Source: Sipunculus nudus (lineage: Eukaryota > Annelida > Sipuncula > Golfingiida > Sipunculidae). Taken from it: a stretch of DNA of 64,000 nucleotides. Position numbers and translations under genes: made by a program. The number at the start of each line of letters is the position of its first letter. Position 1 is the stretch's first letter. Shown here piece after piece: positions 77 through 31,539 of the stretch. The stretch covers positions 60,458,917 through 60,522,916 of the forward strand of contig CM049319.1 in the NCBI GenBank assembly GCA_026874595.1. Direction: 5' to 3'. Below the pieces are notes generated by a model. It ran no database searches. It saw nothing but the letters and a program-made list of their open reading frames with translations, and was not told the origin of the DNA.

Positions 77-245
77 ACAATGTATGACAAATAGATAATG
101 GAGGGTATATTGTATGCCAAGTGAAGATAAAAGCCATCTCGAACGGCATAGGCAATCCAAGGAAGAATCATATAGCCGAGTAGCCATGGGAAATTTTGAA
201 GCACTAAGGCCGGAGTCCGATATCGGTCACCCACCATCTCTGCAA
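77..245 (-). CDS. Left SLC22 gene, exon 4
   Basis: The minus-strand acceptor is tattcag|TTGCAG and the donor TTGT|gtaagt. It encodes AEMVGDRYRTPALV and TM5-TM6. The length of 169 nt equals the right paralog exon 4. It is the last exon of this gene inside the window. Confidence 0.9.
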
Positions 246-2497: not shown

Positions 2498-4302
2498 GTG
2501 AAACATTTATAATTTGGGAACACTTGAGACTGAGCCAAACTGCACATTCCTCACCGGAAACCAAAAAAATGAGGTGGAGAAAAAAGGGGACTGCCGGAAA
2601 CTTCCCACAATATAGAGGTACCTTACCCACCTCATGGAGCTGCCCACTGGGTAAGGTTTATATATATATATATATATATTTGTATATATTGATGTATTGA
2701 TGACCGATGCATTCTGATATAATTTATAAGTGGTAGATGGATTTTCGCCAGTTTTTAATGCACATTTATCAGTGGGTTTGCTGATGACACATATTTCCTA
2801 ATTTAAAACAAAGAGCTAGACTTTGACTGCTTAGACTGGTTTAGACCAGAGAGAGGTGGAGAAAAGAAAACTCCGGCTAGCATCCGGCTGTAGTCCAAGT
2901 GTAACAGAAAAACATATATTTTATCAATGATAAATTTCATAAACAGGAGACCATATCGACCTTTTATCTATTTCTCGGGCTCAGCAATTCTTGAAGGAAA
3001 TATAGCCAAAACACAAAACAAACAGACCCAAGCATGAAGCAGCTAAATGGATCACTGATGTGCTCATCTGTGTCATCACTCCATGTCCACCCTTCTGACA
3101 TTTTTATTTCAGTGTCACATGACCTAAAAGGCTTTATCGTTTTGGGTAAGCCCCATGACACGACCCTGCCATTGTCTTAATGCCGTTTACACAATACGTC
3201 CTACCGATAATCTTAAGAAAAAAGTTTGACACCGTTAGCCTTTTTGTCGGTCGAAAACCAGCTGCGACACGGATTTAAAAATGATGTTTTTTGCACAACA
3301 CCATAATTCCTCAGATATACCGAAAGATTTGGACGTCAAGCGATTGTCATGTCCGGACACGTATACGGGCACGGATACGTTAAGCGTGTTTCCACTTTAA
3401 CGTTCGCCCAATCACAGGATTGATTAGGCCTGAAGGCAGTTAAAATTGGTATATATATATATCTAGCTTAAAGATGAAAAGAACTACCGATCTGAAAGGG
3501 CTCCGGACACCAGCAAACCGGCCAAGAGACCTCCCATAAACACTGAATTAGCTGCTGCCAACATCCACTGACGATCACACACCAGGTCCCACTGAAGCAA
3601 AAGAAACAAAATCAAAATAAGTCTAATTAATTTTGTTAACTTTAAAATTTATATTTGTACCTTGAATATATATTTTTCCATCTTGTACAAACCGTATATG
3701 TCATTTGTTTGTCATCATATGTGTGTCATCTGTATTTGACATTTAATAAGTTGTCATTAAAGTTTTGTTCCTTTAACATGACCATACATAAAGAGGTGTC
3801 TGTTAATATGAAGGTCCGTTTTATGTGTTCGACCACCATGATGCTGATCTGCCCTTAGGGACGACCCTTGAGTAACGTATCAAGATAATATCAATGGATT
3901 TGAAACGTACTACACACTGGGTGTAATTAAGATAAATTTCATAACAGTGATTCTAGAATGAGTGTTAATTTCAAACATATCCAACAGTTCACAAAGGGAA
4001 GAAACACTTTTATCACGGGCTCCCTAGGTACATAATATAGCGTTTAAATAAAACAAGGGCCCAAGGATCAAAAGCTCACTGTTGATTTGAAATGATAAAA
4101 TTGTAAAAATCTAGAGTTATTTTATTTCATACATGGAACTTTTATATATATATTAGCTGATTACCACTGCATGGAAAACCTGCGGAGAATTGCAGCATAG
4201 GCGTCAATTTATCTTCGAGGGGGGGGGGGGGGATGACTCGCAAAGGTGGGAGGATGGAGATGACAGGCATGGAAAGGGTAATTAAAGTTTGGATAAAACA
4301 GA

Positions 4303-4345
<43 letters not shown>

Positions 4346-7300
4346 TTGGTATATTAATTGTCTTTCTGACACATTTCAAATATACATCAATGAGGCTGTG
4401 TGTAAAACCACGGACCCCGGATCCACTTAAAAATCAGAAACTCTTTTAAACCTTTCATGGTAAATTGTCGGAATATTTTAGCAGAACAGTATCTAAAGAC
4501 GTATATAATATGGCGTTTTGTTGTAAACATATTAATAAGTCTGTTTTGCAACAAAATCTGACAATTAACACTTAGTAATTGTGGCGCACAAACCTCACAG
4601 ATCCCACGGACCCCTTTCACTTTTTTCTATTCATATTTTTTTTTTTGCTATTTATTCTATATCCATCGTTTTAAAAAGTATTTTTTATTTTTGATTGATA
4701 AGAGAAAATTTATAAAATAATTATGTTTGTACGTGACATTGCTTAAAATGCAAGTTATCAACAATTCCTTTTGGTAACTATATTAATGCAAAATTTATAT
4801 GGATGTTCATGAATGGACCAAAGCTGTGTTATGTGGAAGATTTCAAATAATAAGTATGCCCGCACTATTATATTTTCAATATAAAATAGCGATTGGCCGT
4901 ATTTAATATGTAACACGAGTGCTAATTCTCTTCTCATTGAGTACATGTAAAATAAGTGTTTGTGACTTTGTCTGTTCATGCATAGAGAACTGATGATGTG
5001 AGGGTTTGCCTAGAGACTTCCTAAGCCAATACAAAAAGTATCACCGTCACGTGACACCCGTGCCTTCACACTGCCTGTTGTGGGTCTTCATGTAGCCATC
5101 TGGCTGTTACATTAATCTTGAACAGTAGAAGTGACCTATACTCTACAAATACTCCCCTAAAATCCCATAGAAGAGGAGTCATCGTCCTTTGCATCTCTGT
5201 TGGTAAGTGTTTAAAAGATAAATGTGAATTTACATAACAGGGGCGGATCTAAGAGGAGTAGGGGTCCAACCCAGGAGGACTAATGACAAAACCTAAAATG
5301 AGTTCTCCTGGTCGAGAAAAAAAGGGGGGGGGATCCAGGCCTCAATAATTGGGTCTGAACCCCTTAAAAAAGTTGCGGTAGATAAAATAAAGGGTCCGGA
5401 CCGACTAGACTCTACCCCCCCCCCCCCCCGGATCCGCTTCTGTCACATTGATATTTATCCTCAATACGGAGAATGAACATGATAAAAAAATCCATCTGTT
5501 CAGATTACCTGATTTGCATATGCATAAATGTTGCCCGCTCAGCATTGCTGATACAGTTTCAAGTGTAAAAAAAAACAAATGTTAAAATTTTTGAGTGCTT
5601 ACAACACAAAAAAAAACAGGCATAATTCGAACAATATGGGTAACTGTGTCCTAAGTTTGTGGTATGCAAGGAGAATTCCAAAAGACCTAGTATCTACTTT
5701 AAGTTTTAAGTCAAGTGGTTACGATTTGTGACTTCTAAACAACAACAAAAATACAATAAAGAAATGCGGTAAAATAAAGAAAATGTAGATGGCACCACCA
5801 GTCTTCCACAGCTGAAAGATTTTTCCATGAAGTATAAGCTTGCCGAATTTTAAAAAGATCAATGCAAAATTTACTGAGATATTTTAAAACAAGAATTTCG
5901 TACATCAACAGCTGAAAATGTTCAAATGTTGCACATTTTTTTCGCAAAATTTCTGGAGAACTGGCTGGGTCGATTTTCAGAATTATTGTATCCGTCAAAA
6001 CAGAGTTTTGCGGATACTGTGTTTTCAGCCGGACGCCCCCGCCGCCTAGGTTTCCGGAGAGCTCCTTCGTATCCACTGGGCGGAATTTTACGAAACTCTG
6101 TATTATGATCGGTTCACATCAGACTCACATGTGAACTGCTGCGCCCTCATTTTGGGTCGACCTCTGACCTTGCCTCTCTGTACAGCGTTTTATTGTGCGT
6201 CTGTTTTCGCACATAACCCCACATATCTTGGGACTCGTTTGACCAACCGGGCTTAAAAATTGCACTAGTGTAGCCCTTTGAAAACTTTAAATGATACACA
6301 AAACTTGTGGCGCCTTTTATAATAGTTTTTTTTGCACAGATTCTGAAACTATGCATGTTTATACATATGGGTTAGAGGTCTCGTTTATATCCCAGGTGGC
6401 GCCAACTACAATTATGTTTACGGTGCATACATCCATGCTTATATCTCAGGACTGGTTTGACGTGTCGGCCTGAAATTTCGCATGTGTAAAGATATTACAC
6501 AGCTTTTTATCATACACAAAACTGGTTGCGCCATCTGCAACTCTTTTGCACGGTGTCTGTTTATCTGTCTGGGGTAAAATCACTCGCATCTCGGCAGTGG
6601 TTTGACTGATTCGCCTGAATTTACCATGTGTATACATTTTGGATGGCTTTCTTGTTTAAATGACAGGTGGCGCCTACTTAAATGATGTTTACATGGCAGA
6701 CATGCATGCTTATATGCAACACTAATCTCACTCTATTTCCCCTTGCCACTCAATCCATGCCTCGCTTCACCCGTTGGCCAACCACTCTGATTTCGGCGGA
6801 TACACGTAGTCGCTTGTTGACTACCCGCATTCTAATTTTGCATGGTAACAATGTTATACGTGCAGTCGATGGCAGGTGGAAGATTACTGTCGCGAATGGA
6901 CACCTTGTGCACCAGGTGGCCTCAGGCCACTAGGCCGCTTTGCATCCTTCTCGATCTATTTCCTTCCGCAAATAGGCCACAAGGATACAGCATTATACAT
7001 GTGGTGTCCTCGGGCCACCAGGGGTATACAAGATTATACCTGTGGACGGCCACCAGAATACACAGCATCAAACCTATAGTGTATCTCTAGGCCACCTGAT
7101 ATATACCAGTATACCTGTATACCAGTATACATGTGATGTCGACTGGGAACCAGGGTATACAGTATCATACATGTGGTGTCCTTAGGCCACCAAGGTATAC
7201 AGAATCATACCTGTGGTGTTCTTGAAGGAAAGTATACTAACAAAATATTATAGTCTGAATTCGGTGTTCTTTCATGGAACTTTTTACGATTTTGGCAGAA

Positions 7301-8123
7301 GAAAACAGATCGAGAAGGCTGACAGCGGGCTGTTGGCCTGAGGCCACCCGGTGTTCAAAGGCCAACATGTGCCCTAAGGCCACGCGGTGTCCCAAGGCCA
7401 CCATTCGCGATAGTAATCTGCCACCTGCCAGACGATGCACAATATTTTAGTTTTAGGGTTGAGTGCAAAATATTTGTTTAGCAGCCCAGAACACTAAAAG
7501 AAGTCTGTTATTTTAAGTGCCAAGAACACACAAAAAAAAATAACGCTGGTAAAACGCGAAATATAGGTCACAGTGACATAATTATTGGTATACTAGGAGA
7601 TTTAACAAGAAACTACTTTTATGCCGAATTTAAAGTTTCGAGGTCAAACATGTACGATTCGTTATTTATTAAAGTACGAACGACCGGACGGACAGATAGT
7701 CGGACGGACGACGGACAAAGGGTGACCGATATAGCTCAGATGACCTATGATTAGCTGAGCTAAAAATTAAGATACTGCAGTGGTATTTGTACGTCATATG
7801 TTTGTTAGGTCACACAAACGTCCCTCCTACATTACATGGATAAACAGATATGGCTACTTAAACTGACGCCATTATTTTTGCACCTCTTTCTAGACAAGTC
7901 ATCGTCCCGGCGTCGCAAATAAAATAAATTTATTTTATTGATACTTAAATCATCATAAATCGCCACATTACTTCGTTTGATAATAGCTAAATTCTAGTGG
8001 CAAACAAAATATATTTGAAAGAAATATCACGAAAAACTAAGTGGACAGCGGTGTTCGAACAACATGGTTTAAAACACTACTGGTTTGGTTGGCTGTGTGA
8101 TTTGCCTAACCAGACCCCTACTA

Positions 8124-8210
<87 letters not shown>

Positions 8211-9569
8211 ATATAGAAATCAACCTGTGATTAGTACACCTGTGACCCACTATGCATCAGTGCACAGGCACACCATACCATCTAGTCTCATTAGATAAAT
8301 AGATGTATAAACAGATTAATAAATTACCAACCAGACCATTATATGTGGAGTAGAGTAATTACTTGTGGTATGGGAAATATTATACCATAGACAGTTAAAT
8401 GTACCCACATAACGGTTAACGAAAGTTAATGACGTGTGTTTGTGTTGTGTTCTGCACGGTGATTTATGTATATGAGTTTGTTAAGCCATGGCAATGAACA
8501 CAACTGGTCCTCCATATAGTACAACAACGTATTCAGAAAGTAAACACGCACACGCTTTGCGTTACAGTTTTCACAACAGTCACTATTGGAATAAAAGCAT
8601 GATCGTTTGCACTTGACAATAAAGTAAAGATTAGTCCAAGTTCCAGTAAGTTCCAGATAATAATCCAATGTAACGGAAACAGTCCAGTATTTTTCACTCG
8701 CTTTACGAGGCACAAATATTGAAACAAATTCACAACAGCTGCTGCCAGCGTTCCATATGACACAAAATCACAACCGCTGCTGTCAGCGTTCCGTGTGACA
8801 CAAATCCAGTCCAAGGGTAGGCCTACCTTAGTTCATTGACAGTATCCTTTGTCTGAGCGAGAGTCAGTAGTAAGAGTTGGTTGTAACAGTGCATGATTTT
8901 TTGGTTGATGTACATTAAAGAAACTATAATATTTCTCACAAGTCCTAAAATCTGTTTCTTGTAAATCATAATATTATGTACAATTATTGATTCCTAATCC
9001 AGCGACTGCATGAGTGTATCGAATTGCATACCCATACTGGTTAGGAATTTATATTGCTAGTTAGTTATTATTAGACAGACGTTAGATATAGAAGTTGAAA
9101 AAAATAGTCCAAGCAATAACTTAATAAAATGTCATTTAACATATTAGTAATAATGCTACTATATATGAAGTTGAATAATTACTAATTTCTTGCAAGTCTC
9201 ACAAGAGTGAGACGTCTTTGTTCTATAGATCCAACAGATGACAAATAATGCCAGCGATAACTTAATAAATTTTATTTAACATATAAAAAATAATACCCAA
9301 TAATAAGGAAGTTTAATAATTACTAATTAATTGGAAGCCTCACCAGAGTGATACATGTCTTTGTGCTATAGATCCATGAAGTGACAATCCTCCCAGCAAT
9401 AATGATTGCGATTCTATACTATGAAAATAATTTGAAGATATTATATAACTGTATACAGAAAAGTGAACATTTATGAAAGATAATTTGTATAAATTGAGGC
9501 TCAAAGGACTCCAGAAAACGTAATTTTTTTAGTTATTAATTGATTGAATTCTTGGTTATAAAAACAAAC

Positions 9570-9644
<75 letters not shown>

Positions 9645-12600
9645 ATTGAAGGCTCTTGCACGCGAAAGTGCAATTTAAATTTGCCAGTATTGAAAGACTC
9701 AGGCAAATGGACTCCTATAGCATTAAATGCTTGTCCTGAGCTCAGTGACTCCGGTTGATCGGAAACTTCATGATGCTCTCAGATAAACAGCAGGTTTACA
9801 TCTTTCGGTGCAATTCCTTCACGAAGAAATAATTTCAGCCTTAGTGCGTTGCTTTGTCTTAAGTAGAATTATTGCAAAAAGATATATCCGAATAGTTTTT
9901 TTCGGAAAAATTGCAGATGATTAGTGCAAAACCGTATGAACAATTTGTGGTGCGATCATCAAGTTTTATCGAAAGTCAGTCGGCTTTCTGCCACTTTCAA
10001 GCGCTCGATTAACAAAGGCAGCTATCGATAACATCATAATCATGACTGTTTTTTTTCCAGAATGCCTTTATGTATTAGGCTAAAATTATTCTCATATTTT
10101 TTACAACATTCCGTGCTTCAAATAATTAGTCCTTGTTCCCAAATTAACTTCCGTATGTAACTGAGTATAACACGGTAGATGCGTGAAAAGAGGACTTAAT
10201 AATCCTCTGAGAACTGACAGGTAGCTGCAGAAATAGCGGGGAGTTTCGTAACGAGATGTACATACATTGCACAGTATGGGCGGTATGGCGTTAAAATGCT
10301 CCATAAATTCTCTTGGTCTATGCAGCAAGTAGATGTCCTGGATAGTGGTTTAATTCTTAATTATTATAAATAATTAAAATGAAACTTTGAAAAGCATATC
10401 TTACTAATAATAGGAAAATGTAAAAAAGGCAAAAACGTCTTTTCTTTAGCTAGAATTACTCAGACATGCGGGCTGAGTTAAGAAAGTACAGTTTTACAGA
10501 TATTTGCATATTTCTTTATATTTGCCTGAACCGATTAATAATCGATCATCGATCGGTTTGCTCAAACCGATGATCGATTATGAAAAAGGAACCGACTCCC
10601 ACCACTATGAACAATCCATTATTTAATTATAGAGGAAATCAGAATCAACATAATCTATTTTTTTTTCTTATGTACAATTATGACGAAAGATAAATTCCTT
10701 TATCACAATGTAGAAGCCGTCCATTCGTACGCATTTGTTATGCCACTTGCCAGGTGAAACCTTGTCACTAAAGCGTGACAGTGTTTACACATGAAAAATA
10801 TATACTTGAAGACATGACTAATTAGGAGATTCTTGTGAAGGTTTTTAGACTCCGACTGAAGTATAATAGTTTTTTATTAGAATCCCTATCAGTTTAAAGA
10901 TACACTGGTGATATATTTCATGTTTTAAAGTCCCTAGTGATTGCTGATCGAATAAAAATGTGTGCACAAAAATGTGAGGGAAGTATTGGGAGCAGTTGGG
11001 ATAAGAGTGGATTTGTGACCTCGAATTGTCCAATACGTTCTGTGGCCAGTGAGCATTAAAGGAAGGAAAATCCCTAGAGCGCCTCCTGAATAAACGTCCG
11101 ATCGTAGGGGACCGTAAAGCACACATAAAATACGGGCACTAGGAGATTATTGAAATAATTAATTATGCTGCTTAATTGGGCATAATCCCGCAAAATAAAA
11201 CAAACTCGTCCTAGAAGACAGCACCGCCGATAGACGTGCAGAATTTCGAGATTCAAATCAGAGCGGAAGTAGTAAACCATTGTTTAAAAAAAACGAACAG
11301 CGTACTAATTATATAGATAATGATATATATATATATAGATAATATATTTTCTAAGAAATTTTGTGTCTGTTCTTTTCTTTCCTAGCGGTCTGAGGTGTCA
11401 TAGCTGATGTGACGGGTCATCTGAGTTGACACCGGCCGTATCGAGCAGAAATAGGCGCAAAATCATCAAACTTCTCAATTTTATATTGTTAACATCTCTG
11501 TCACCTCAAGGAGTACACTTTATACATAGGGTTCTTGTGTAAACAGCAAAATATCTTGGTTTAATTTCCGAACTAGCAACCGTATTAGTGGTGGTTGGAG
11601 CTAACTTGTCCGTAGTACTCCGTACCGTCACGTTAATTAGATTGTATGCTGTCGCTGTGCACTGACGCATATAGTGGGTCGCAGTGTATTACATAATACG
11701 GAATATAATTTATATTCTTCATATATAGATTTCTTGTTGGCTATGATGCGAACCAGATCACACTTCCAACTGGATCAGTGGTGAATTAGAACCTTATCGT
11801 TAGAACAGGGTATATTATATGCTAATTTTATCCTTCAAAGGCTAAAATAAATTGACCTACCTTGGTAACAATAGTGGAGATGTACACAGACTGGTCATAC
11901 TGCCATCCACGGTTACACCCTACTACATCTAATGCGTTTGTGTCATATCCTCCCCTCAGCGCTTCCAAAACCTCATCTCTTGTGACGGCGGAATAATTCC
12001 TCTTATACATCCGACAAGAGCTGAAGACGTTCTGTCCGTCTTTCTCCTCCAGCGGGATGCTGAAATTCTTCAGTTGATCCAGAGTAATATTCAAATGGGC
12101 AAGGTCGTGTACGGCGCACCAGTGTTTGGGAGTAGCTCCCAAAAACACCATCCCGAGGTTATTGAAGCTGTAGACGAGGCCGGACAAACTACATACAAAG
12201 AAAACGCAAATTTGGTATAGACCACAGTGGCCTATTATCTCATGTAGTTCCAGCGAAGTCATGCTTGCATTATAGAATCTAATTCAACCGACCCGTATGT
12301 GATCGTTGTAACTAAATACCGGAATGGACCGAAACTGACAGGAACGGACCAAATCGGAACTAAGCCTTCTGAAATAAATAAACGGACCAGCATGGATGAT
12401 CTCCAATAGCACCAGGAGGGAAAAGCAAGACAATAACAGATTAATTTTGCTAAACAAGTAAAGGCACTAGATAACAAAAGTAATTTTATAAAAATTGTAT
12501 GATTTTGTCTCCTTGAAAGACATGTCTGAGCGGCTGGAGCTCAAAATTGGTAAGTTTCTATTTAAAATCAAAATAAAAATATTTGATGCGGGGGTTTAAA

Positions 12601-14672
12601 ATTGACGCAGGCGGTGCCTGAGAATCATAGCTTTTATTTTTGTTTTCCTAATTTTAGTCTGTTGCTTGATTATAACGATATAATAGATACTGACAACTGA
12701 TTATACAGAGGGACTTCAGTGTATTTAAAGTAGATGGCAAAGATTTTCTAAGTTCGAGCTGAATCGAAAAATAACAATTGTACATTGTTAACAAATTTCC
12801 ATATTTCCATCTCCTAGCAAACCGTCGGAACACCGTAGAAAAGGAAAAAATACATATATTTATTTATATATTTATTTATTTATATATACTTTAAATATAA
12901 ATGCTATTCGATTTATCATTGTTTTTTGTGTCTAGGTTTCTGAAATATTTCAAGGAAGTGAATTTATTTATCTACAGTGTTCCTAGGGCTTGCTAGGAGA
13001 TGAAGATGTTGTGTAGTTAGGGTGAGAACACGCATTATTTAACATACATATATTGCTTATACATATATGTTGGCCTGTTGTGTAGTCTGTAAACAGATCC
13101 TAAAGATTAATTAAGTCGTACGTACCAGATAGTATATGGTGTAGGTACCAGGTAAATTATTTATTTTTCTTTTACCAGGTGGCAGCAATACGCTTCGGTA
13201 TGTTTTAGATTTTAATAAGCGATTATCATTACACATGGTCATGTCTTTCCATAACTTCCCCTCAAATTCATTTAGTTCCATAATATACAAGTTATCAGGA
13301 TACATGTATATATTTGTTTGTTAGGTCCGTTTTGATATTTAGACCCCTCCGTTCCGGTCCGTTTTGGTCCGGTCCGGTCCGTTCCAGTGTGTTTTGGTTC
13401 GTTCTGGTATTTAGTTACACCTAACCATGAACCTTCTTCTAGCATGGTTCCCAGCCTGCCTTGCGCTAACTTTTTGTTATGCTCACGGAAGCATTGCACA
13501 AACCCTTTAATCATCGTCTCGCAACATGTCAGGATGTTTACACGTGTTAGTTTGTTCGTTTCGAAGCACCGCAATTTAATACCCGTCTTTTGATGACAAA
13601 TTAATTGGCGTTCCCTTTTTTATGCTGTGCCTTAAAATATGCCGCAATGTGGCTTTCTGTATGGATTATGGACACAAATTAACTCATTAAAAGCGGTTTC
13701 TACAATGCTTATTCAAGCGGGGTCCTATAATTATTGGTTTATTTTGATGTTTTTCGCTGTGAACATGTAATTTGAACAAATTCAGGTGATCTGTTGGAAA
13801 ATATCTGTACATTCACCGTGGATATGAATGAGTTTCTTGCCATTCAAATGGCAAAAAAATGCCATATTGTGATTTCTGTTTATGAGAACAATATGAGACG
13901 ACTAATAACACAAATATTGAATAAAGATTTGAACACAAGAAAAATCTGATAAAGTGTCTTTAATTTATGACGAGGAAAATTAAAATTAAGCAATCTTTGG
14001 CAGAAAAAGTTAAACTTTTCGAATGACAAAGAAGTTAAGCTAAATATTATGCATGTATATTAAAATAAAAATCGCTTTTAATACTATGCAACCAAAGCGC
14101 TTGTAACCATCTCCGACATACTTAGAACATAAATTTATGCTCATAGACACTCACAACTGCAGTTGATACATTGTACAACGTTTATTCTAGTGTGTGCCGG
14201 CTCGAAAAAGCATGTTTACACGCATCTAGGATGTCATTGTAAACTTACTCACAGGCGCGGCATATCAATATGGTTAGGCACAGTGATTGTTAATATTAAT
14301 ACAATAAAGTGCCAAGTCTTGTTAAAATGCCGCTGTGACGTCGTTGTCCGTCTGTCTGAACCACGCGCTCGTGTACACACACACTCACTCATGGCTCACA
14401 ATAATAACGCAGACCAGCATATAAGATAAACGTATCTTTACTGCGTTAACCCTATCTAATACATCAAAGGTATCTACTCTCAAATAATACGAGATCTGTT
14501 ATTTTATTTCATACATGGAACTTTTTTATATATATTAGCTGATTACCACTGAAAAATCTGCGGAGAATTGCAGCATAGGCGTCAATTTATCTTCGGGGGG
14601 GGGGATGACTCGCAAAGGTGGGAGGATGGAGATGACAGGCATGGAAAGGGTAATTAAAGTTTGGATAAAACA

Positions 14673-14713
<41 letters not shown>

Positions 14714-17700
14714 TTGGTATATTAATTGTGTATAATATACATCAATGAGGCTGTGTGTAAAACCACGGACCCCGGATCCACTTACAAATCAGTAACTCTT
14801 AAACCTTTCATGGTAAATTGTCGGAATATTTTAGCAGAACAGTATCTAAAGACGTATATAATATGGCGTTTTGTTGTAAACATATTAATAAGTCTGTTTT
14901 GCAACAAAATCTGACAATTAACAGTTAATGTAGCGCACAAACCTCACAGATCCCACGGACCCCTTTCACTTTTTTTCTATTCATATTTTTTATTTGCTAT
15001 TTATTCTATATCCATCGTTTTAAAAAGTATTTTTTATTTTTGATTGATAAGAGAAAATTTATAAAATAATTATGTTTGTACGTGACATTGCTTAAAATGC
15101 CAGTAATCAACAATTCCTTTTGGTAACTATATTAATGCAAAATTTATATGGATGTTCATGAATGGACCAAAGCTGTGTTATGTGGAAGATTTCAAATAAT
15201 AAGTATGCCCGCACTATTATATTTTCAATATAAAATAGCGATTGGTCGTATTTAATATGTGACACGAGTGCTAATTCTCTTCTCATTGAGTACATGTAAA
15301 ATAAGTGTTTGTGACTTTGTCTGTTCATGCATGGAGAACTGATGATGTGAGTGTTTGCCTAGAGACTTCCTAAGCCAATACAAAAAGTATCACCGTCACG
15401 TGACACCCGTGCCTACACAATGAATGTTGTGGGTCTTCATGTAGCCATCTGGCTGTTACATTAATCTTAAACAGTAGAAGTGACCTATACTCTACAAATA
15501 TTCCCCTAAAATCCCATAGAAGAGGAGTCATCGTCCTTTGCATCTCTGTTGGTAAGTATTCAAAAGATAAATGTGAATTTACATAACAGGGGCGGATCTA
15601 AGAGGAGTAGGGGTCCAACCCAGGAGGACTAATGACAAAACCTAAAATGAGTTCCCCTGGTCGAGAAAAAAAGGGGGGGGGGGATCCAGGCCTCAATAAT
15701 TGGGTCTGAATCCCTTAAAAAAGTTGCGGAAGATAAAATAAAGGGTCCGGACCGACTAGACCCTACCCTCTGACCTTGCCTCTCTGTACAGCGTTTTATT
15801 GTGCGTCTGTTTTCGCACATAACCCCACATATCTTGGGACTTGTTTGACCAACCGGGCTTAAAAATTGCACTAGTGTAGCCCTTTGAAAACTTTATATGA
15901 TACACAAAACTTGTGGCGCCTTTTATAATAGTTTTTTTTTTCACAGATTCTGAAACTATGCATGTATATACATATGGGTTAGAGGTCTCGTTTATATGCC
16001 AGGTGGCGCCAACTACAATTATTTTTACGGTGCATACATCCATGCTTATATCTCAGGACTGGTTTGACGTGTCGGCCTGAAATTTCGCATTTGTAAAGAT
16101 ATTACACAGCTTTTTATCATACACAAAACTGGTTGCGCCATCTGCAACTCTTTTGCACGGTGTCTGTTTATCTGTCTTGGGTAAAATCACTCACATCTCG
16201 GCAGTGGTTTGACTGATCCGCCTGTATTTACCATGTGTATACATTTTGGATGGTTTCTTGTTAAAATGACAGGTGGCGCCTACTTAAATGATGTTTACAT
16301 GGCAGACATGCATGCTAATATGCAACACATCTCATTCTGTTTCCCCTTGTCATTCAATCCATGCCTCGCTTCACCCGTAGGCCAACCACTCTGATCTCGG
16401 CGGATACACGTAGTCGCTTGTTGACTACCCTCATTCAAATTTTGCATTGTAACAATGTTATACGTGCAGTTGATGGCAGGTGGCAGATTACTTTCGCGAA
16501 TGGACACCTGGGTTGCCTGAGGCCACATGGTGCTCTTCGGCACCAGGTGGCCTCAGGCCACTAGGCCGCTTTGCATCCTTCTGGATCTATTTCCTTCCGC
16601 AAATAGGCCACAAGGATACAGCATTATACATGTGGTGTCCTCGGGCCACCAGGGGTATACAAGATTATACCTGTGGACGGCCACCAGAATACACAGCATC
16701 AAACCTGTAGTGTATCCCTAGGCCACCTAATATATACAAGTATACCTGTGTTGTCCTTAGCCAACAAGGTTTACAGCATTATACATGTGGTGTCGACTGG
16801 GAACCAGGGTATACAGTATCATACATGTGGTGTCCTTAGGCCACCAGGGTATACAGAATCAAACCTGTGCTGTTCTTGAAGGAAAGTATACTAACAAAAT
16901 ATTATATTCTGAATTCGGTGTTCTTTCATGGAACTTTTTACGATTTTGGCGGAAGAAAACAGATCGAGAAGGGTGCACAGCGGGCTGTTGGCCTGAGGCC
17001 ACCCGGTGTTCAAAGGCCAACATGTGCCCTGAGGCCACGCGGTGTCCCAAGGCCACCATTCGCGATAGTAATCTGCCACCTGCCAGTTGATGCACAATAT
17101 TTTAGTTTTAGGGTTGAGTGCAAAATATTTGTTTAGCAGCCCAGAACACTAAAAGAAGTCTGTTATTCTAAGTGCCAAGAGCACAAAAAAAAGAACGCAG
17201 GTAAAACGCGAAATATAGGTCACAGTGACATAATTATTGGTATGCTAGGATATTTAACAAGAACTACTTTGATGCCGAATTTAAAGTTTCGAGGTCAAAC
17301 GTATACGATTTGTTATTTATTAAAGTACGAACGACCGGACGGACAGATAGTCGGACGGACGACGGACAAAGGGTGACCGATATAGCTCAGATGACCTATG
17401 ATTAGCTGAACTACAAATTAAGATACTGCAGTGGTATTTGTACGGCATATGTTTGTTAGGTCACACAAACGTCCCTCCTACATTACATGGATAAACAGAT
17501 ATGGCTACTTGAACTGACGCCATTATTTTTGCACCTCTTTCTAGACAAGTCATCGTCCCGGCGTCGCAAATAAAATAAATTTATTTTATTGATACTTAAA
17601 ATCATCATAAATCGCCACATTACTTCGTTTGATAATAGCTAAATTGTGGTGGCAAACAAAATATATTTGAAAGAAATATCACGAAAAACTAGGTGGACAG

Positions 17701-17775
17701 TGGTGTTCGAACAACATGGTTTAAAACACTACTGGTGTGGTTGGCTGTGTGATTTGCCTAACCAGACCACTACTA

Positions 17776-17825
<50 letters not shown>

Positions 17826-20800
17826 AATCAACCTGTGATTAGTACACCTGTGACCCACTATGCATCAGTGCACAGGCACACCATACCATCTAGTCTCATT
17901 AGATATAGTAGATGTATAAACAGATTAATAAATTACCAACCAGACCATTATATGTGGAATAGAGTAATTACTTGTGGTATGGGAAATATTATACCATAGA
18001 CAGTTAAATGTACTCACATAACGGTAACCGAAAGTTAATGAGGTTGTGTTTGTGTTGTGTTCTGCACGGTGATTTATGTATATGAGTTTGTTAAGCCATG
18101 GCAATGAACACAACTGGTCCTCCATATAGTACAACAACGTATTCAGAAAGTAAACACGCGCACGCTTTGCGATACAGTTTTCACAACAGTCACTATTGGA
18201 ATAAAAGCATGATTGTTTGCACTTGACAATAAAGTAAAGATTAGTCCAAGTTCCAGTAAGTTCCAGATAATAATCCAATGTAACGGAAACAGTCCAGTAT
18301 TTTTCACTCGCTTTACGAGGCACAAATATTGAAACAAATTCACAACAGCTGCTGCCAGCGTTCCATATGACAAAATCACAACCGCTGCTGTCAGCGTTCC
18401 GTGTGACACAAATCCAGTCCAAGGGCAGGCCTACCTTAGTTCATTGACAGTATCCTTTGTCTGAGCGAGAGTCAGTAGTAAGAGTTGGTTGTAACGGTGC
18501 ATGATTTTTTGGTTGATGTACATTAAAGAAACTATAATAATTCTCACAAGTCATAAAATCTGTTTCTTGTAAATCATAATATTATGTACAATTATTAATT
18601 CCTAATCCAGCGACTGCATGAGTGTATCAATATGCATAACCATACTGGGTGAAAAAAATAGTCCAAGCAATAACTTAATAAAATGTCATTTAACATATTA
18701 GTAATAATGCTACTATATATGAAGTTGAATAATTACTAATTTCTTGCAAGTCTCACAAGAGTGAGACGTCTTTGTTCTATAGGTCCAACAGATGACAAAT
18801 AATGCCAGCGAAAACTTAATAAATTTTATTTAACATATAAAAATAATGCCCAATAATAAGGAAGTTTAATAATTACTAATTAATTGGGAGCCTCACCAGA
18901 GTGATACATGTCTTTGTGCTATAGATCCATGAAGTGACAATCCTCCCAGCAATAATTTAATGTTATTTAGCATAGACTATTATCAATAACGCCACTCTAT
19001 GTGAAGTTGAGGCTCAAATAGTCCCCGCAATGTGTTTCACTAGGAAAGTGTGAGCAACCAAACAGCCCAAAACCTTGGTAAGAAGAGCGTCAAATTCAAA
19101 ATACGTGCAAAGCATATATGAGGAGTACGAATTTTGCAATTTTATTCAAAACATAGACATGACACGATTAACAACATGAGCACGACATCACCAATGCCGG
19201 AGTGATTGCGATTCTATACTATGAAAATAATTTGAAGATATTATATAACTGTATACAGAAAAGTGAACATTTATGAAAGATAATTTGTATAAATTGAGGC
19301 TCAAAGGACTCCACAAAACGGAATTCTTTTATTTATCAATTGACTGAATTCTTGGTTATGAAAACAAACAGATGTATATGCCATTGAAGGCTCATGCACG
19401 CGAAAGTGCAACTTAAATTTGCCAGTATTGAAAGACTCAGGCAAATGGACTCCTATTGCATTAAATGCTTGTCCTGAGCTCAGTGACTCCGGTTGATCGG
19501 AAACTTCATGATGCTCTCAGATATACAGCAGGTTTACATCTTTCGGTGCAAGTCCTTCACGAAGAAATAATTTCAGCCTTCGTGTGTTGCTTTGTCTTGA
19601 GTAGAATTACCGCAAAAAGATATATCCGAATAATTTTTTTTCGGAAAAATTGCAGATGATTAGTGCAAAACCGTATGAACAATTTGTGGTGCGATCATCG
19701 AGTTTTATCGAAAGTCAGTCGGTTTTCTGCCACTTTCAAGCGCTCGATTAACAAAGGCAGCTATCGATAACATCACAATCATGACTGTTTTTTTCCAGAA
19801 TGCCTTTATGTATTAGGCTAAAATTATTCTTCCATTTTTTGCAACATTCCGTGCTTCAAATAATTAGTCCTTGTTCCCAAATTAACTTCCGTATGTAACT
19901 GAGTATAACACGGTAGATGCGTGAAAAGAGGACTTAATAAACCTCTGAGAACTGACAGGTAGCTGCAGAAATAGCGGGGAGTTTCGTAACGAGATGTACA
20001 TACATTGCACAGTATGGGCGGTATGGCGTTAAAATGCTCCATAAATTCTCTTGGTCTATGCAGCAAGTAGATGTCCTGGATAGTGGTTTAATTCTTAATT
20101 ATTATAAATAATTAAAATGAAACTTTGAAAAGCATATCTTACTAATAATAGGAAAATGTAAAAAAGGCAAAAACGTCTTTTCTTTAGCTAGAATTACTCA
20201 GACATGCGGGCTGAGTTAAGAAAGTACAGTTTTACAGATATTTGCATATTTCTTTATATTTGCCTGAACCGATTAATAATCGATCATCGATCGGTTTGCT
20301 CAAACCGATGATCGATTATGAAAAAGGAACCGACTCCCACCACTATGAACAATCCATTTAATTATACAGGAAATCAGAATCAACATAATCTATTTTTTTT
20401 TCTTATGTACAATTATGACGAAAGATAAATTCCTTTATCACAATGTAGAAGCCGTCCATTCGTACGCATTTGTTATGCCACTTGCCAGGTGAAACCTTGT
20501 CACTAAAGCGTGACAGTGTTTACACATGAAAAATATATACTTGAAGACATGACTAATTAGGAGATTCTTGTGAAGGTTTTTAGACTCCGACTGAAGTATA
20601 ATAGTTTTTTATTAGAATCCCTATCAGTTTAAAGATACACTGGTGATATATTTCATGTTTTAAAGTCCCTAGTGATTGCTGATCGAATAAAAATGTGTGC
20701 ACAAAAAATGTGAGGGAAGTATTGGGAGCAGTTGGGATAAGAGTGGATTTGTGACCTCGAATTGTCCAATACGTTCTGTGGCCAGTGAGCATTAAAGGAA

Positions 20801-22001
20801 GGAAAATCCCTAGAGCGCCTCCTGAATAAACGTCCGATCGTAGGGGACCGTAAAGCACACATAAAATAGGGGCACTAGGAGATTATTGAAATAATTAATT
20901 ATGCTGCTTAATTGGGCATAATCCCGCAAAATAAAACAAACTCGTCCTAGAAGACAGCACCGCCGATAGACGTGCAGAATTTCGAGATTCAAATCAGAGC
21001 GGAAGTAGTAAACCATTGTTTAAAAAAAAACGAACAGCGTATTAATTATATAGATAATGATATATATATATATATAGATAATATATTTTCTAAGAAATTT
21101 TGTGTCTGTTCTTTTCTTTCCTAGCGGTCTGAGGTGTCATAGCTGATGTGACGGGTCATCTGAGTTGACACCGGCCGTATCGAGCAGAAATAGGCGCAAA
21201 ATCATCAAACTTCTCAATTTTATATTGTTAACATCTCTGTCACCTCAAGGAGTACAATTTATACATAGGGTTCTTGTGTAAACAGCAAAATATCTTGGTT
21301 TAATTTCCGAACTAGCAACCGTATTAGTGGTGGTTGGAGCTAACTTGTCCGTAGTACTCCGTACCGTCACGTTAATTATATTGTATGCTGTCGCTGTGCA
21401 CTGACGCATATAGTGGGTCGCAGTGTATTACATAATACGGAATATAATTTATATTCTTCATATATAGATTTCTTGTTGGCTATGATGCGAACCAGATCAC
21501 ACTTCCAACTGGATCAGTGGTGAATTAGAACCTTATCGTTAGAACAGGGTATATTATATGCTAATTTTATCCTTCAAAGGCTAAAATAAATTGACCTACC
21601 TTGGTAACAATAGTGGAGATGTACACAGACTGGTCATACTGCCATCCACGGTTACACCCTACTACATCTAATGCGTTTGTGTCATATCCTCCCCTCAGCG
21701 CTTCCAAAACCTCATCTCTTGTGACGGCGGAATAATTCCTCTTATACATCCGACAAGAGCTGAAGACGTTCTGTCCGTCTTTCTCCTCCAGCGGGATGCT
21801 GAAATTCCTCAGTTGATCCAGAGTAATATTCAAATGGGCAAGGTCGGGTACGGCGCACCAGTGTTTGGGAGTAGCTCCCAAAAACACCATCCCGAGGTTA
21901 TTGAAGCTGTAGACGAGGCCGGACAAACTACATACATAGAAAACGCAAATTTGGTATAGACCACAGTGGCCTATTATCTCATGTAGTTCCAGCGAAGTCA
22001 T
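77..22001 (-). CDS. SLC22-family transporter, left paralog, 5' part only (exons 1-4), cut by window edge
   Basis: Read on the minus strand: exon 1 in two copies (22001-21600 distal, 12262-11861 proximal), exon 2 (3591-3488), exon 3 (2437-2283) and exon 4 (245-77). Exon lengths 402, 104, 155 and 169 nt and all phases match the right paralog, and all splice sites are GT-AG. Later exons lie beyond position 1. The protein is very similar to the right gene's, with changes such as S for T in exon 3, N-F for I-I in exon 4 and S for A before DR in exon 2. No stop or frameshift is seen, so it looks functional as far as visible. First exons need no acceptor, so both exon 1 copies could in principle splice to exon 2. 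Confidence 0.88.
246..2282 (-). other. Left gene intron 3
   Basis: Positions 380-700 match the reverse complement of right intron 3 (50480-51110) and keep the empty site of a MITE found on the right. The stretch 499-600 (GACACCGAAACTTACA... GTATGCACTAAGAA) recurs at 1645-1725, so a dispersed repeat is present. A poly-G run lies at 1810-1822. The rest shows nothing recognisable. Confidence 0.6.
2149..2242 (+). mobile_element. 5' end of a TTA-type MITE in left intron 3
   Basis: Starts after TTA with GGCCAAAAAAAAATGTATAA, then TCTCAGGCACCGCCCGCATC and CCAGCCGCTCGCA, matching one half of the element at 51911-52244. The other half is missing. Confidence 0.65.
2283..2437 (-). CDS. Left SLC22 gene, exon 3
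   Basis: The minus-strand acceptor is cttatacag|TGTAGG and the donor CTAG|gtgagc. It encodes VGRRKIMVVSG, TM3 and the start of TM4. An AC/GT microsatellite (2464-2495) sits shortly upstream of the acceptor, as in the right paralog. Confidence 0.9.
2464..2495. repeat. AC microsatellite beside left exon 3
   Basis: About 15 AC units, only ~26 bases upstream of the exon 3 acceptor on the gene strand. The right gene has TA/TG repeats at the equivalent place. Confidence 0.9.
3488..3591 (-). CDS. Left SLC22 gene, exon 2
   Basis: On the minus strand the acceptor is ttcag|TGGGAC and the donor GATCG|gtagtt. It encodes WDLVCDRQW, TM2 and GALSDR. The length of 104 nt equals the right paralog exon 2, with only a few changed residues. 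Confidence 0.9.
5416..6160. other. Segment present in unit A only (insertion in A or deletion in B)
   Basis: Flanking sequence is collinear in both units: A reads CTACCCCC at one end and CTCTGACC at the other, while B joins CTACCCTCTGACC directly. The segment begins with an 18-base C run. I recognise no gene or element ends in it. Two opposed open frames here look incidental. Confidence 0.7.
6170..6690. repeat. Degenerate tandem array (~155 bp period), unit A
   Basis: About three diverged units share the words ATACACAAAACT, GGTGGCGCC, CTTATATCTCAGGACTGG-like and TTTGCACGGTG-like blocks. Unit B holds the same array at 15770-16290. No coding capacity is evident. Confidence 0.6.
6890..7420. repeat. 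Short-period GGCCACC / GTATACA minisatellite, unit A
   Basis: Imperfect units of roughly 25-60 bases centre on AGGCCACCAGGGTATAC and ATACATGTGGTGTCC, then shift to AGGCCACGCGGTGTCCC near 7335-7405. Open frames here arise from the repeat. Confidence 0.65.
8125..8210. repeat. TA/TG microsatellite, unit A
   Basis: A long TA run with an internal TGTGTGTG stretch. The same site in unit B (17776-17820) is a shorter pure TA run, so the locus is length-variable between the copies. Confidence 0.9.
9090..9400. repeat. Two to three ~140-bp tandem units, unit A
   Basis: Units share AACTTAATAAAATTT, TTTAACATAT, AATAATTACTAATT and GAGTGA(G/T)AC...CTATAGATCCA. A third unit is cut short at 9400. In unit B (18655-19200) the third unit continues, which accounts for the B-only segment. 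Confidence 0.6.
9572..9641. repeat. 70-bp TA microsatellite, unit A only
   Basis: Pure alternating TA. Unit B has only GATGTATATGCC at the same place (near 19370), so the run expanded in A or collapsed in B. Confidence 0.9.
10540..10579. repeat. Near-perfect palindrome (hairpin), unit A
   Basis: A 20-base left arm with ATCGATCATCGATCGG and a 16-base right arm CCGATGATCGAT face each other around GCTC. A three-base ATC insertion is the only asymmetry. It sits in left intron 1. Confidence 0.75.
11861..12262 (-). CDS. Left SLC22 gene, exon 1, proximal copy (unit A)
   Basis: ATG is at 12262 in the context GCAAGCATGA and the donor is ACCAAG|gtaggt. It encodes 134 residues with TM1, sequons at 58, 66 and 89, and CNRGWQYD. 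Against the distal copy it has F22, H52 and K65. H52 replaces a proline that both the distal copy and the right paralog keep, so H52 is the derived state. Confidence 0.88.
12263..12365 (-). promoter_or_regulatory. Putative promoter/5' UTR, left gene proximal exon 1
   Basis: On the minus strand this holds the conserved block CACATACGGGT...TTGAATTAGATTCTATA before ATG, preceded by GGTCCATTCCGGT-like imperfect repeats. These take the place of the AGTCCATTT repeats at the same distance in the right gene. Confidence 0.45.
12418..12650 (+). mobile_element. Truncated TTA-type MITE just upstream of proximal exon 1
   Basis: It contains GAGCGGCTGGAGCTCAAAATT, GATGCGGGGGTTTAAAAT and GGTGCCTGAGAATCATA, all hallmarks of the full-length MITE at 50672-51008. 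The GGCC ends are lost or decayed. It lies about 155 bp before the ATG on the gene's 5' side. Confidence 0.7.
13323..13412. repeat. GGTCCGTTCC minisatellite, unit A
   Basis: Imperfect repeats of TCCGTTCCGGTCCGTTTTGG run into GTATTTAGTTACACC. The same GGTATTTAGTTAC plus GGTCCATTCC pair occurs, in opposite orientation, in the promoter at about 12300-12365. Unit B repeats it at 23051-23140. Confidence 0.6.
16500..17070. repeat. Short-period GGCCACC / GTATACA minisatellite, unit B
   Basis: Counterpart of the unit A array with different unit content. B carries an extra GCCTGAGGCCACATGG piece near 16510 and a variant unit at 16740-16790, as expected of unequal exchange or slippage. Confidence 0.6.
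17776..17820. repeat. TA microsatellite, unit B
   Basis: Alternating TA run following CTACTAG, matching the position of the longer, TG-interrupted run in unit A. Confidence 0.9.
18955..19203. other. Segment present in unit B only
   Basis: It continues the third ~140-bp tandem unit and a unique stretch that ends just before GATTGCGATTCTATAC, where A and B become collinear again. It was probably lost from A by deletion between CCAGCAATAAT and the downstream site. Confidence 0.6.
20278..20317. repeat. Near-perfect palindrome (hairpin), unit B
   Basis: Same hairpin as in unit A with no base changed, about 1.3 kb 3' of distal exon 1 on the gene strand. Confidence 0.75.
21600..22001 (-). CDS. Left SLC22 gene, exon 1, distal copy (unit B)
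   Basis: ATG is at 22001 and the donor is identical to the proximal copy. It differs from that copy by Y22, P52 and R65 only. It is open throughout. Using it would make an intron 1 of about 18 kb that skips the proximal copy. It may instead be the second haplotype of the same exon. Confidence 0.85.
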
Positions 22002-22104
22002 GCTTGCATTATAGAATCTAATTCAACCGACCCGTATGTGATCGTTGTAACTAAATACCGGAATGGACCGAAACTGACAGGAACGGACCAAATCTGAACT
22101 AAGC
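22002..22104 (-). promoter_or_regulatory. Putative promoter/5' UTR, left gene distal exon 1
   Basis: This is a near-identical copy of the proximal block, with the conserved 45-base leader and GGTCC(A/G)TTCC repeats. If the tandem unit is real, the gene has two equivalent promoters about 9.7 kb apart. Confidence 0.42.
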
Positions 22105-22156
22105 CTTCTGAAATAAATAAACGGACCAGCATGGATGATCTCGAATAGCACCAGGA

Positions 22157-22390
22157 GGGAAAAGCAAGACAATAACAGATTAATTTTGCTAAACAAGTAA
22201 AGGCACTAGATAACAAAAGTAATTTTATAAAAATTGTATGATTTTATCTCCTTGAAATACATGTCTGAGCGGCTGGAGCTCAAAATTGGTAAGTTTCTAT
22301 TTAAAATCAAAATAAAAATATTTGATGCGGGGGTTTAAAATTGACGCAGGCGGTGCCTGAGAATCATAGCTTTTATTTTTGTTTTCCTAA
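22157..22390 (+). mobile_element. Truncated TTA-type MITE just upstream of distal exon 1
   Basis: Copy of the unit A fragment, at the same distance from exon 1, so the insertion predates the separation of the two units. The right paralog has no such element at its promoter. Confidence 0.7.
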
Positions 22391-23050
22391 TTTTAGTCTG
22401 TTGCTTGATTATAACGATATAATAGATACTGACAACTGATTATACAGAGGGACTTCAGTGTATTTAAAGTAGATGGCAAAGATTTTCTAAGTTCGAGCTG
22501 AATCGAAAGATAACAATTGTACATTGTTAACAAATTTCCATATTTCCATCTCCTAGCAAACCGTCGGAACACCATAGAAAAGGAAAAAAATACATATATT
22601 TATTTATTTATATATACTTTAAATATAAATGCTATTCGATTTATCATAGTTTTTTGTGTCTAGGTTTCTGAAATATTTCAAGGAAGTGAATTTATTTATC
22701 TACAGTGTTCCTAGGGCTTGCTAGGAGATGAAGATGTTGTGTAGTTAGGGTGAGAACACGCATTATTTAACATACATATATTGCTTATACATATATGTTG
22801 GCCTGTTGTGTAGTCTGTAAACAGATCCTAAAGATTAATTAAGTCGTACGTACCAGATAGTATATGGTGTAGGTACCAGGTAAATTATTTATTTTTCTTT
22901 TACCAGGTGGCAGCAATACGCTTCGGTATGTTTTAGATTTTAATAAGCGATTATCATTACACATGGTCATGTCTTTCCATAACTTCCCCTCAAATTCATT
23001 TAGTTCCATAATATACAAGTTATCAGGATACATGTATATATTTGTTTGTT

Positions 23051-23140
23051 AGGTCCGTTTTGATATTTAGACCCCTCCGTTCCGGTCCGTTTTGGTCCGG
23101 TCCGGTCCGTTCCAGTGTGTTTTGGTTCGTTCTGGTATTT
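23051..23140. repeat. GGTCCGTTCC minisatellite, unit B
   Basis: Copy of the unit A minisatellite with the same unit number as far as I can see, lying about 1.1 kb from distal exon 1. Confidence 0.6.
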
Positions 23141-24226
23141 AGTTACACCTAACCATGAACCTTCTTCTAGCATGGTTCCCAGCCTGCCTTGCGCTAACTT
23201 TTTGTTATGCTCACGGAAGCATTGCACAAACCCTTTAATCATCGTCTCGCAACATGTCAGGATGTTTACACGTGTTAGTTTGTTCGTTTCGAAGCACCGC
23301 AATTTAATACCCGTCTTTTGATGACAAATTAATTGGCGTTCCCTTTTTTATGCTGTGCCTTAAAATATGCCGCAATGTGGCTTTCTGTATGGATTATGGA
23401 CACAAATTAACTCATTAAAAGCGGTTTCTACAATGCTTATTCAAGCGGGGTCCTATAATTATTGGTTTATTTTGATGTTTTTCGCTGTGAACATGTAATT
23501 TGAACAAATTCAGGTGATCTGTTGGAAAATATCTGTACATTCACTGTGGATATGAATGAGTTTCTTGCCATTCAAATGGCAAAAAATGCCATATTGTGAT
23601 TTCTGTTTATGAGAACAATATGAGACGACTAATAACACAAATATTGAATAAAGATTTGAACCCAAGAAAAATCTGATAAAGTGTCTTTAGTTTATGACGA
23701 GGAAAATTAAAATTAAGCAATCTTTGGCAGAAAATGTTAAACTTTTCGAATGACAAGAGGTTAAGCTAAATATTATGCATGTATATTAAAACAAAAATCG
23801 CTTTTAATACTATGCAACCAAAGCGCTTGTAACCATCTCCGACATACTTAGAACATAAATTTATGCTCATAGACACTCACAACTGCAGTTGATACATTGT
23901 ACAACGTTTATTCTAGTGTGTGCCGACTCGAAAAAGCATGTTTACACGCATCTAGGATGTCATTGTAAACTTACCTACAGGCGCGGCATATCAATATGGT
24001 TAGGCACAGTGATTGTTAATATTAATACAATAAAGTGCCAAGTCTTGTTAAAATGCCGCTGTGACGTCGTTGTCCGTCTGTCTGAACCACGCGCTCGTGT
24101 ACACACACACTCACTCAAGGCTCACAATAATAACGCAGACCAGCATATAAGATAAACGTATCTTTACTGCGTTAACCCTATCTAATACATCAAAGGTATC
24201 TACTCTAAAAAAATACGAGATCTGTT

Positions 24227-25800
24227 GGAAATTCTTGGACGCTCGCACGATCCGCTGCACTCTGACGTCATTACCCAGACCCCAGGTCTTCTGTGCTGAA
24301 CTCGTGCGCCCCAGTCCTTACCATCCGTATCTCGATACCTCCCGTCACGTCTAGGACGAACCTCACTCCTCCGCCGGCCACACTCGAGCGCCCTCTCTCG
24401 GCCTCGTTGACGTCCCCTCCGTCGACCGTGCGGTGCTGGTCTGCGACTCTGCGCCTCACCAGACTTCCAACCTCCCGGGATGCCGCTTGTCCGTCAGCTG
24501 GACTGTATACCCACTGTGCGCCCCCTGCGCTTTCGGCCTCGCCTTATTGGTCACACCCGAGGTAAAAAACTATCAGAAAAATACACGGAATGCTCATAAC
24601 TCCTATGGCTATTTCAAATACCACGGCAAGCATGCCATATGGGACTACTGCCTAGCAAGGTTCCTATCGGAAACCTCACATAATACCCCTGTGCTTATGC
24701 CGTTACACACTTTTAAAGTCGAACATTTGATTTACGTATTTACGTTACGTATTATCAGAGCTGCACGCGCTAAACGAAATAACATTGACAGTGTTACCCG
24801 TGCTGCCCTAACAGTGGGGTTTCATTGTTAACCATCCTTGTGATACATCACATACTGACATTATGGGAAAACCCCGTATTTCCCTCAATAAAACTTGCAC
24901 ATGGAATGACCAACAGCCCCGACTAAAACTGTTATATGAACATTTGAGCCGTCTTTGGCTTTACAATACATCAACACTAAAATTATACGCTACTGTGCAC
25001 TAGGGATAACAAATAGGCTTACTTCCCGAAACCTTGAGTTAACTTTTTTTCATATGAAGCCTTAAAAAAGACATCCTTTCAGTTTTAACTATATTCAGAC
25101 TGTGAGATACAATTCAAAAGTCTAAGCATTAGGCCAAAAAAAAAATAAGGTATGGTTCTCAGGCACTTTTTTTCAGAAATCAGTGCGGGCGGGCGGTATT
25201 TTATTTTTGACCTTATTTTGGATGTTTCGATAAAAATGTCATTTAATCAGGAAAAAGCATGAAAATAACAAATTTTTTGCTAAACACTACATAAATTGTA
25301 TTATTTATCTTCTTGAAAGATAAAAATCAAAATAAAAATTTTTGATGCGGGGGGTTAAAATTGACGCGGGCGGTGCCTGAGAACCATACCTTTTATTTTT
25401 TTTGGCCTTACATTTACAAGAAAGAGACAAGTGAGAATAGCTTACGGGTCTTTAACCCTAACCTTACGATGGCAATCTCAATCTGCGGCTTCTGTCCTGC
25501 TCCCGATCTCTCCTCGTTGGCGGCTTCAAGTGCAATATAGACTGGGAACTGAGCCCCTTTATACTGGTCTCCACTGAAAGCTACTGACTATTTATAAGAT
25601 ACATGAATTACAAAACGTTACAATAAGCGAAGTGCTCGATTGCCCTATGAATATTCATTAGCTTCGACATGCACGCTAGCTAAGCCTTTTACACAGGCGT
25701 GCCCCTTCACCTCCGAACTAGTGACCTATGAACTACTTAACCCGAGCGCACGGCCCCGGTGTGCCTAATTACAGTGAGCGCTCACTCGCTCACTCAACCA
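24227..25800 (-). mobile_element. GC-rich retroelement-like remnant, tentative
   Basis: 24230-24560 is far richer in GC than its surroundings. Read on the minus strand, the stretch from about 25775 down begins TGTAATTAGG and contains TATAAATAG and TATAAAGGGG boxes followed by AGCCGCC-rich sequence, which resembles an LTR promoter. A short minus-strand open frame (24459-24271) is not recognised. No second LTR, PBS or pol domain is seen, so the call is weak. A TTA-type MITE (25132-25407) is inserted within. Confidence 0.25.
25132..25407 (+). mobile_element. TTA-flanked MITE, 276 bp (PIF/Harbinger-like)
   Basis: Terminal inverted repeats of about 35 bases run GGCCAAAA...GGTATGGTTCTCAGGCAC, with TTA on both sides. 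A 3-bp TTA/TAA target duplication is the known habit of PIF/Harbinger elements. There is no coding capacity. It is shorter than the ~337-bp copies through an internal deletion. Confidence 0.8.
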
Positions 25801-28990: not shown

Positions 28991-29281
28991 AACAGCCAGC
29001 TGAGTTAAAAAAGGAAAGCTCAACGCCCTGGGACAGGTAACAAAGTGTGGCTTATACATAACTCTTGCATGCAGACTTATATTGAAGAAAACAATACCAG
29101 ACGCAAAAAAGACGCTCCACGTCAGTATGAAACGTAAATTTTTCAATTGAAAACCTTTCTTAGTTGACTCTCTGGTAATTTTTCCTGTATAATCGATAGA
29201 ATCCTGTACAGCTGTGCAAGTTTGCTCTTATTTCTAGATCAGGTATGTCCACAAGAACGACCAATAAAAATTCAAATTACT

Positions 29282-31280: not shown

Positions 31281-31539
31281 AAAAACAAAAACAAGAAAAA
31301 TACACGTTGCGCCACCAGTCTTCAAGAACTAAAGAAACTAATCGTTATCAATAAACACACATTGTTTTAGGACACTTGATGAAACCACAACTGAGTAACT
31401 GACATAATTGCTGTCATCTGTTGGTGTAAACACAGAAAAAAATCATAAAAATTAGAAGAATACAGGTGGCCTTATCAGTTTTCGTTAACTGGCAAACTGG
31501 TTGTTTTCAATATTCAAGGCAGGATTTATGGCAATTCAT

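Follow-up and report, generated by a model that had tools for sequence, protein, structure and literature searches.

The window, by which we mean the whole stretch of 64000 bases of Sipunculus nudus DNA analysed here, carries two SLC22-type genes that lie head to head as inverted paralogs, gene L on the minus strand and gene R on the plus strand (Table 1). A segment of about 10 kb that includes the first coding exon of gene L is present twice, as units A and B, which adjoin head to tail with zero spacer in both self-BLAST and a global alignment of the two. The first-pass annotation of this DNA mentioned neither that the duplicated exon belongs to gene L, on the minus strand, nor that a second SLC22 gene stands head to head with it. 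The exon edges of both genes were set by GT/AG, frame and homology, and are thus predictions from sequence. The later exons of gene L would fall beyond the left end of the window.

Table 1. Units A and B, their principal differences, and the predicted exons of genes L and R (positions in the window; unit limits from self-BLAST and the global A/B alignment)
Feature	Position	Strand	Remarks
Unit A	4116-14497		10382 bp; holds exon 1A with upstream DNA, and part of gene L intron 1
Unit B	14498-24223		9726 bp; holds exon 1B with upstream DNA, and part of gene L intron 1
Seam A/B	14481-14526		46 bp; A-only bases 14481 and 14485, B-only base 14526; single occurrence in window
Low-divergence part of A	10104-14497		0.63% vs B; includes exon 1A and upstream DNA; B counterpart approx. 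19840-24223
A-only 745 bp	5416-6160		CC (2 bp) common to both edges, inside C run
B-only 247 bp	18956-19202		edges ambiguous by one base
A-only 62 bp	from 9572		AT repeat
Gene L exon 1A, coding part	11861-12262	-	402 bp, ATG to GT donor, phase 0; predicted
Gene L exon 1B, coding part	21600-22001	-	402 bp, ATG to GT donor, phase 0; predicted
Gene L exon 2	3488-3591	-	WDLVCDR...; single on minus strand, outside units
Gene L exon 3	2283-2437	-	single copy on minus strand
Gene L exon 4	77-245	-	single copy on minus strand
Gene R exon 1	33517-33918	+	inverted paralog, unduplicated arrangement, one exon 1 in window
Gene R further exons	47566-47669, 49020-49174, 51266-51434, 52476-52602	+	GT/AG and frame
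Gene R further exons, continued	56342-56556, 58973-59160, 61522-61657	+	GT/AG and frame

The protein predicted from gene R has its best PDB match in 9pdq, the organic cation/carnitine transporter 2 (E 2.1e-80), the alignment running in two stretches, residues 10-310 and 293-499 of 503. Twenty-six of its 28 PDB matches are SLC22 by name or synonym, some of them through synonyms that we take to denote members of this family, and the other two are sugar transporters. In Pfam it scores above the cut-off for both MFS_1 (68.9 bits; cut-off 33.4) and Sugar_tr (67.9; 22.3). The best NCBIfam match is TIGR00898 (2A0119), at 340.8 bits against a cut-off of 550.75 for a protein model that is missing one exon; an exon expected between 52602 and 56342 was not found by eye among frames of at least 24 codons. 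The first 220 residues of gene L are those of gene R with few changes (the PDB search was run on R); they score above the cut-off for Sugar_tr (28.4) and below that for MFS_1 (30.0), and on its own exon 1, whether of A or of R, stays below every Pfam cut-off. By similarity along the protein and by the major facilitator fold family found in Pfam, the predicted product of gene R belongs with the SLC22 transporters; nothing unusual was seen in it. The exon 1 block of A matches R at 92% of 469 bp, and in the coding part of exon 1 the two genes differ with a dS of 0.124 and a dN of 0.053. A stretch resembling a splice acceptor can be seen by eye before the start codon in gene R.

In self-BLAST, the match between A and B is split into several pieces, the main ones with E = 0.0. 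The global alignment gives 98.06% identity over 9417 ungapped columns, the 1.94% divergence consisting of 183 substitutions (88 transitions and 95 transversions). There are 35 alignment gaps, including one artefactual 3-bp GTT taken in past the end of B. Beyond the three large length differences of Table 1, the indels of at least 10 bp measure 54, 44, 13, and 11 bp in A and 27 and 23 bp in B. The longest exact match is 896 bp. When 31-mers are counted in the window sequence, 4764 are A-only, 4150 are B-only and 5530 are common to both units. These alignments bear out what the first-pass annotation had described, namely two units that abut without spacer, nearly identical over 10 kb, with the first exon of an SLC22 gene and its upstream DNA duplicated, although the promoter that it placed in this DNA is no more than putative; the indels it had put at about 745, 245 and 60 bp are found as 745, 247 and 62 bp. 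It had also taken the mixture of point changes, indels and microsatellite differences to look allelic. This point does not discriminate, as recent paralogs show the same mixture.

For the 745-bp difference, a deletion from B is rated likelier than an insertion into A. We considered whether the 745-bp and 247-bp differences stem from transposons, and no target-site duplication was seen by eye in the edges of either. The 745-bp piece has two short matches (58 bp at 79% and 42 bp at 83%) to a tandem array at 44-47 kb, and given these matches it may still be a repeat insertion. Ten of the longer open frames, drawn from the units and from the DNA at their right edge, gave no Pfam match at E 0.05; within the units the scan covered these and exon 1A. 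Nor did the window yield a tRNA or any match to Rfam at gathering scores.

Exons 1A and 1B end in the same phase and with the same donor sequence, so either could splice to the single exon 2, across an intron of 8269 bp from 1A or 18008 bp from 1B. Over their 402 bp they differ by 3 nonsynonymous and 0 synonymous changes, and the predicted proteins differ only by F22Y, H52P and K65R. When gene R serves as outgroup, the new residue in A is H52, and those in B are Y22 and R65. Adaptive divergence of the two exons was rejected as an explanation, the changes being too few. The upstream DNA inside the units amounts to 2235 bp for 1A and 2222 bp for 1B. Exon 1A retains its native downstream side and exon 1B its native upstream side, so that B alone would have next to it any element situated beyond 2.2 kb upstream. 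Some 150 bp before the start of 1A (12419-12641) and of 1B (22158-22380) there is a dispersed repeat, related to a long imperfect palindrome (737 bp, 93% self-complementary) at 51522-52258; given this repeat, the promoter may sit elsewhere, even outside the unit. If, as the acceptor-like stretch in gene R would allow, a noncoding exon comes before the coding one, 1A and 1B would instead act as alternatives for the second exon. A short upstream frame, ATGCAAGCATGA, overlaps the start codon of 1A and 1B on the minus strand (12259-12270 and 21998-22009) and is absent at gene R exon 1.

It is possible, though we lean slightly against it, that the duplication is real and that only one of the first exons is transcribed, the other being a passenger; this is compatible with the other readings discussed below. 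The position of the dispersed repeat, which may put the promoter elsewhere, is in keeping with a passenger exon, as is the fact that all three coding changes are nonsynonymous. However, in the absence of selection all three would be nonsynonymous about half the time (314 of 402 sites, by our own arithmetic), so that this says little, and both copies are open, with start, donor and phase intact.

Gene R provides a witness for the ancestral order. Blocks of its intron 1 align in order with gene L, and one of them, R 43600-43731 (+), spans, at L 4192-4056, the left boundary of unit A (80% over 137 columns), whereas the match of gene R intron 1 with unit B (14570-14499) ends at the seam. The junction of left flank and A is therefore ancestral and the A/B seam derived. 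The ancestral left boundary fixes the seam as the new join, but by itself it does not separate duplication from misassembly. On the other side, the two genes have in common just some 40 bp ahead of the start codon; no colinear L/R match was found beyond them, which leaves the right boundary without a witness. When changes are polarised by R (4 blocks, 1226 columns, 26 changes), 12 are assigned to A and 11 to B, with 3 ambiguous. The 12:11 split is neutral, being expected under the duplication or the haplotype view.

We consider it probable that units A and B represent a true tandem duplication, for which the sequenced animal may be homozygous or heterozygous. The competing reading, which we hold to be rather unlikely, is a false heterotype duplication, in which A and B are two alleles that the assembler or gap filling has put one after the other, each chromosome having one exon 1. 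The seam bears most directly on this choice. The break is base-precise, and the GTT found there is common to the left flank/A, A/B and B/right flank junctions, a 3-bp microhomology. Such a seam speaks for a join by repair or replication, though not strongly on its own: 6.2% of random joins within the window reach a microhomology of at least 3 bp. Moreover, the left boundary in gene R reads ATT, the first of the three bases (G) being A there and thus not conserved. Both the 6% chance at a random join and the A in R weaken the seam argument. Even so, the join being base-precise and without a gap, with its 3-bp microhomology, tips the balance to a real duplication. The first-pass annotation had offered duplication and alleles as alternatives; both still stand, with the balance moved towards the former by the seam.

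A real duplication is also favoured by the presence of no N in all 64000 bases, the lack of a spacer, the seam being the derived adjacency, and two exons that are both open with intact donors and phase. The criteria for false duplications in PMC9516828 comprise a gap between the copies, half read depth over each copy, discordant read pairs linking them and one-copy k-mers in both; as to the first, there is no N at this join, although a gap may have been filled; gap filling can hide a gap, according to a passage in PMC9516828. With differing sequence on each side, two alleles in series would need either a bridging read or a filled gap at so precise a join. The 896-bp exact match and the resolved 2.7-kb array nearby suggest that long reads went into the assembly and hence that a read lies behind the seam. 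Because the 46 bases at the seam combine A-only and B-only bases, ordinary short reads could be diagnostic for a real versus a false duplication.

Several observations are consistent with alleles in series. The A/B divergence is within the allelic range of heterozygous animals (cf. the individual heterozygosity of 1.73 +/- 0.24% given for a mussel in a passage of PMC7653742), and the units differ by indels and microsatellites. Errors of this type accounted for 4 to 16% of three earlier vertebrate assemblies, in which 7 to 24% of all false duplications lay on the same scaffold, as stated in part of PMC9516828. The cases described there resemble A and B in being neighbouring copies at allele-like divergence; they are unlike them in that A and B have no gap between the copies and are joined at a microhomology. 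An allele-specific tandem duplication that is real but at haploid depth is on record in the same source, which makes a heterozygous duplication a live option here.

The divergence is unevenly distributed along the pair, a feature absent from the first-pass annotation. In a change-point analysis that masked columns within 5 of a gap, 135 of 4769 columns (2.83%) differ to the left of 10104 and 27 of 4303 (0.63%) to the right, and the score of this step was reached by 0 of 1000 permutations. Inside the low-divergence part there is a weaker second step at 13935, where the difference goes from 0.45% to 1.83%, with a score that 11 of 500 permutations reach; in the high-divergence part no second step stood out (53 of 500). 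Without masking, intron differences number 153 in 5039 to the left of 10104 and 6 in 1754 to the right, as compared with 3/402 in the exon, 4/500 in the first 500 bp upstream and 17/1722 further upstream. Since the low block takes in intron, constraint on the exon alone does not explain the low divergence; conversion between the copies or a haplotype mosaic would explain it. The step from 2.8% to 0.6% is compatible with duplication and with the allele view. A recombined pair of haplotypes would show such a step with no further assumption, whereas a real duplication needs conversion to account for it, and the overall 1.94% is near the allelic level; both points count against duplication. The second step at 13935 makes a single conversion tract less tidy. 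Dating the duplication by the A/B divergence was rejected, as alleles and paralogs are not separable by divergence.

Within a real duplication, the join could have been made between homologous chromosomes, A and B having been diverged alleles already when they were brought in cis. One event would then cover the allele-like divergence, the step and the clean seam. We regard this origin as quite improbable; nothing specific to it was found, and a sister-chromatid origin with conversion explains the same data. If it were true, the divergence would not date the duplication, and the step would reflect old haplotypes rather than conversion. A shade less probable again, because it also takes both exons as usable, is that such a join has placed diverged alleles of exon 1, upstream DNA and intron 1 in cis as an incipient two-member array of variable first exons, which would amount to fixed heterozygosity in one SLC22 gene.

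The course of events that we favour is as follows. A segment of about 10 kb, with one end in intron 1 of gene L and the other 2.2 kb upstream of its exon 1, would have been joined head to tail at the 3-bp microhomology, by a mechanism such as end joining or replication template switching. Gene L would then possess two candidates for its first coding exon, 1A at 8.3 kb and 1B at 18.0 kb from exon 2, and transcripts starting at B would skip exon 1A as intron. As the predicted proteins differ only at three residues, the effect is likelier to be one of promoter dosage or separate regulation than a new transporter. The low-divergence block over exon 1 and upstream DNA would stem from later gene conversion between the copies.

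The predicted arrangement is like that of the variable-first-exon clusters UGT1 and Gcnt2, in which tandem first exons of equal length and frame precede one set of later exons (PMC1885805; PMC3325998). In gene L both first exons are 402 bp long with a phase-0 donor, and the downstream exons 2-4 are single on the minus strand at 3591-77, within the window. The Gcnt2 first-exon cluster was expanded by tandem duplication, and the clusters treated in PMC1885805 are vertebrate. Gene L is unlike them in having two copies only, with 3 differences in 402 coding bases, and any separate promoters or separate splicing of its first exons are putative. Polymorphic tandem duplications of Drosophila are also head-to-tail genomic copies, with average sizes of 1.2 and 1.8 kb in the portion of PMC3207856 consulted, as against 10 kb for the present unit, whose copies are already 2% diverged. 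Among the papers listed for SLC22 with mollusc and tandem duplication, or with alternative first exon, none describes such a case, judged by titles and the start of abstracts. If real, the locus would represent an early stage of a gene gaining alternative first exons, with the inverted paralog alongside showing the prior state; if false, it would be an assembly error liable to be annotated as a gene novelty.

Some other features of the window may be recorded. Between the two SLC22 genes, a fragment at 26542-26778 is similar to the beginning of a RecQ-type helicase (in NCBIfam, PRK11057 at E 1.9e-06, far below the cut-off; in PDB, 1oyw at 2.7e-04 and Bloom at 0.011). The ratio of observed to expected CpG is 0.21 to 0.76 at 28000-31599 (400-bp windows) versus 0.70 to 1.36 in the profiled parts of the tandem units, the low values perhaps marking a methylated gene body or an old insertion. 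The tandem array in gene R intron 1 (44422-47119) comprises about 8 copies of a 337-bp unit and lies directly before the part that matches gene L. Directly to the right of unit B, 24224-24799 is richer in G+C (0.48 at 24000-24399 and 0.51 at 24400-24799), and a palindrome, TGACGTCA, is found on the same side of the unit at 24263-24270.
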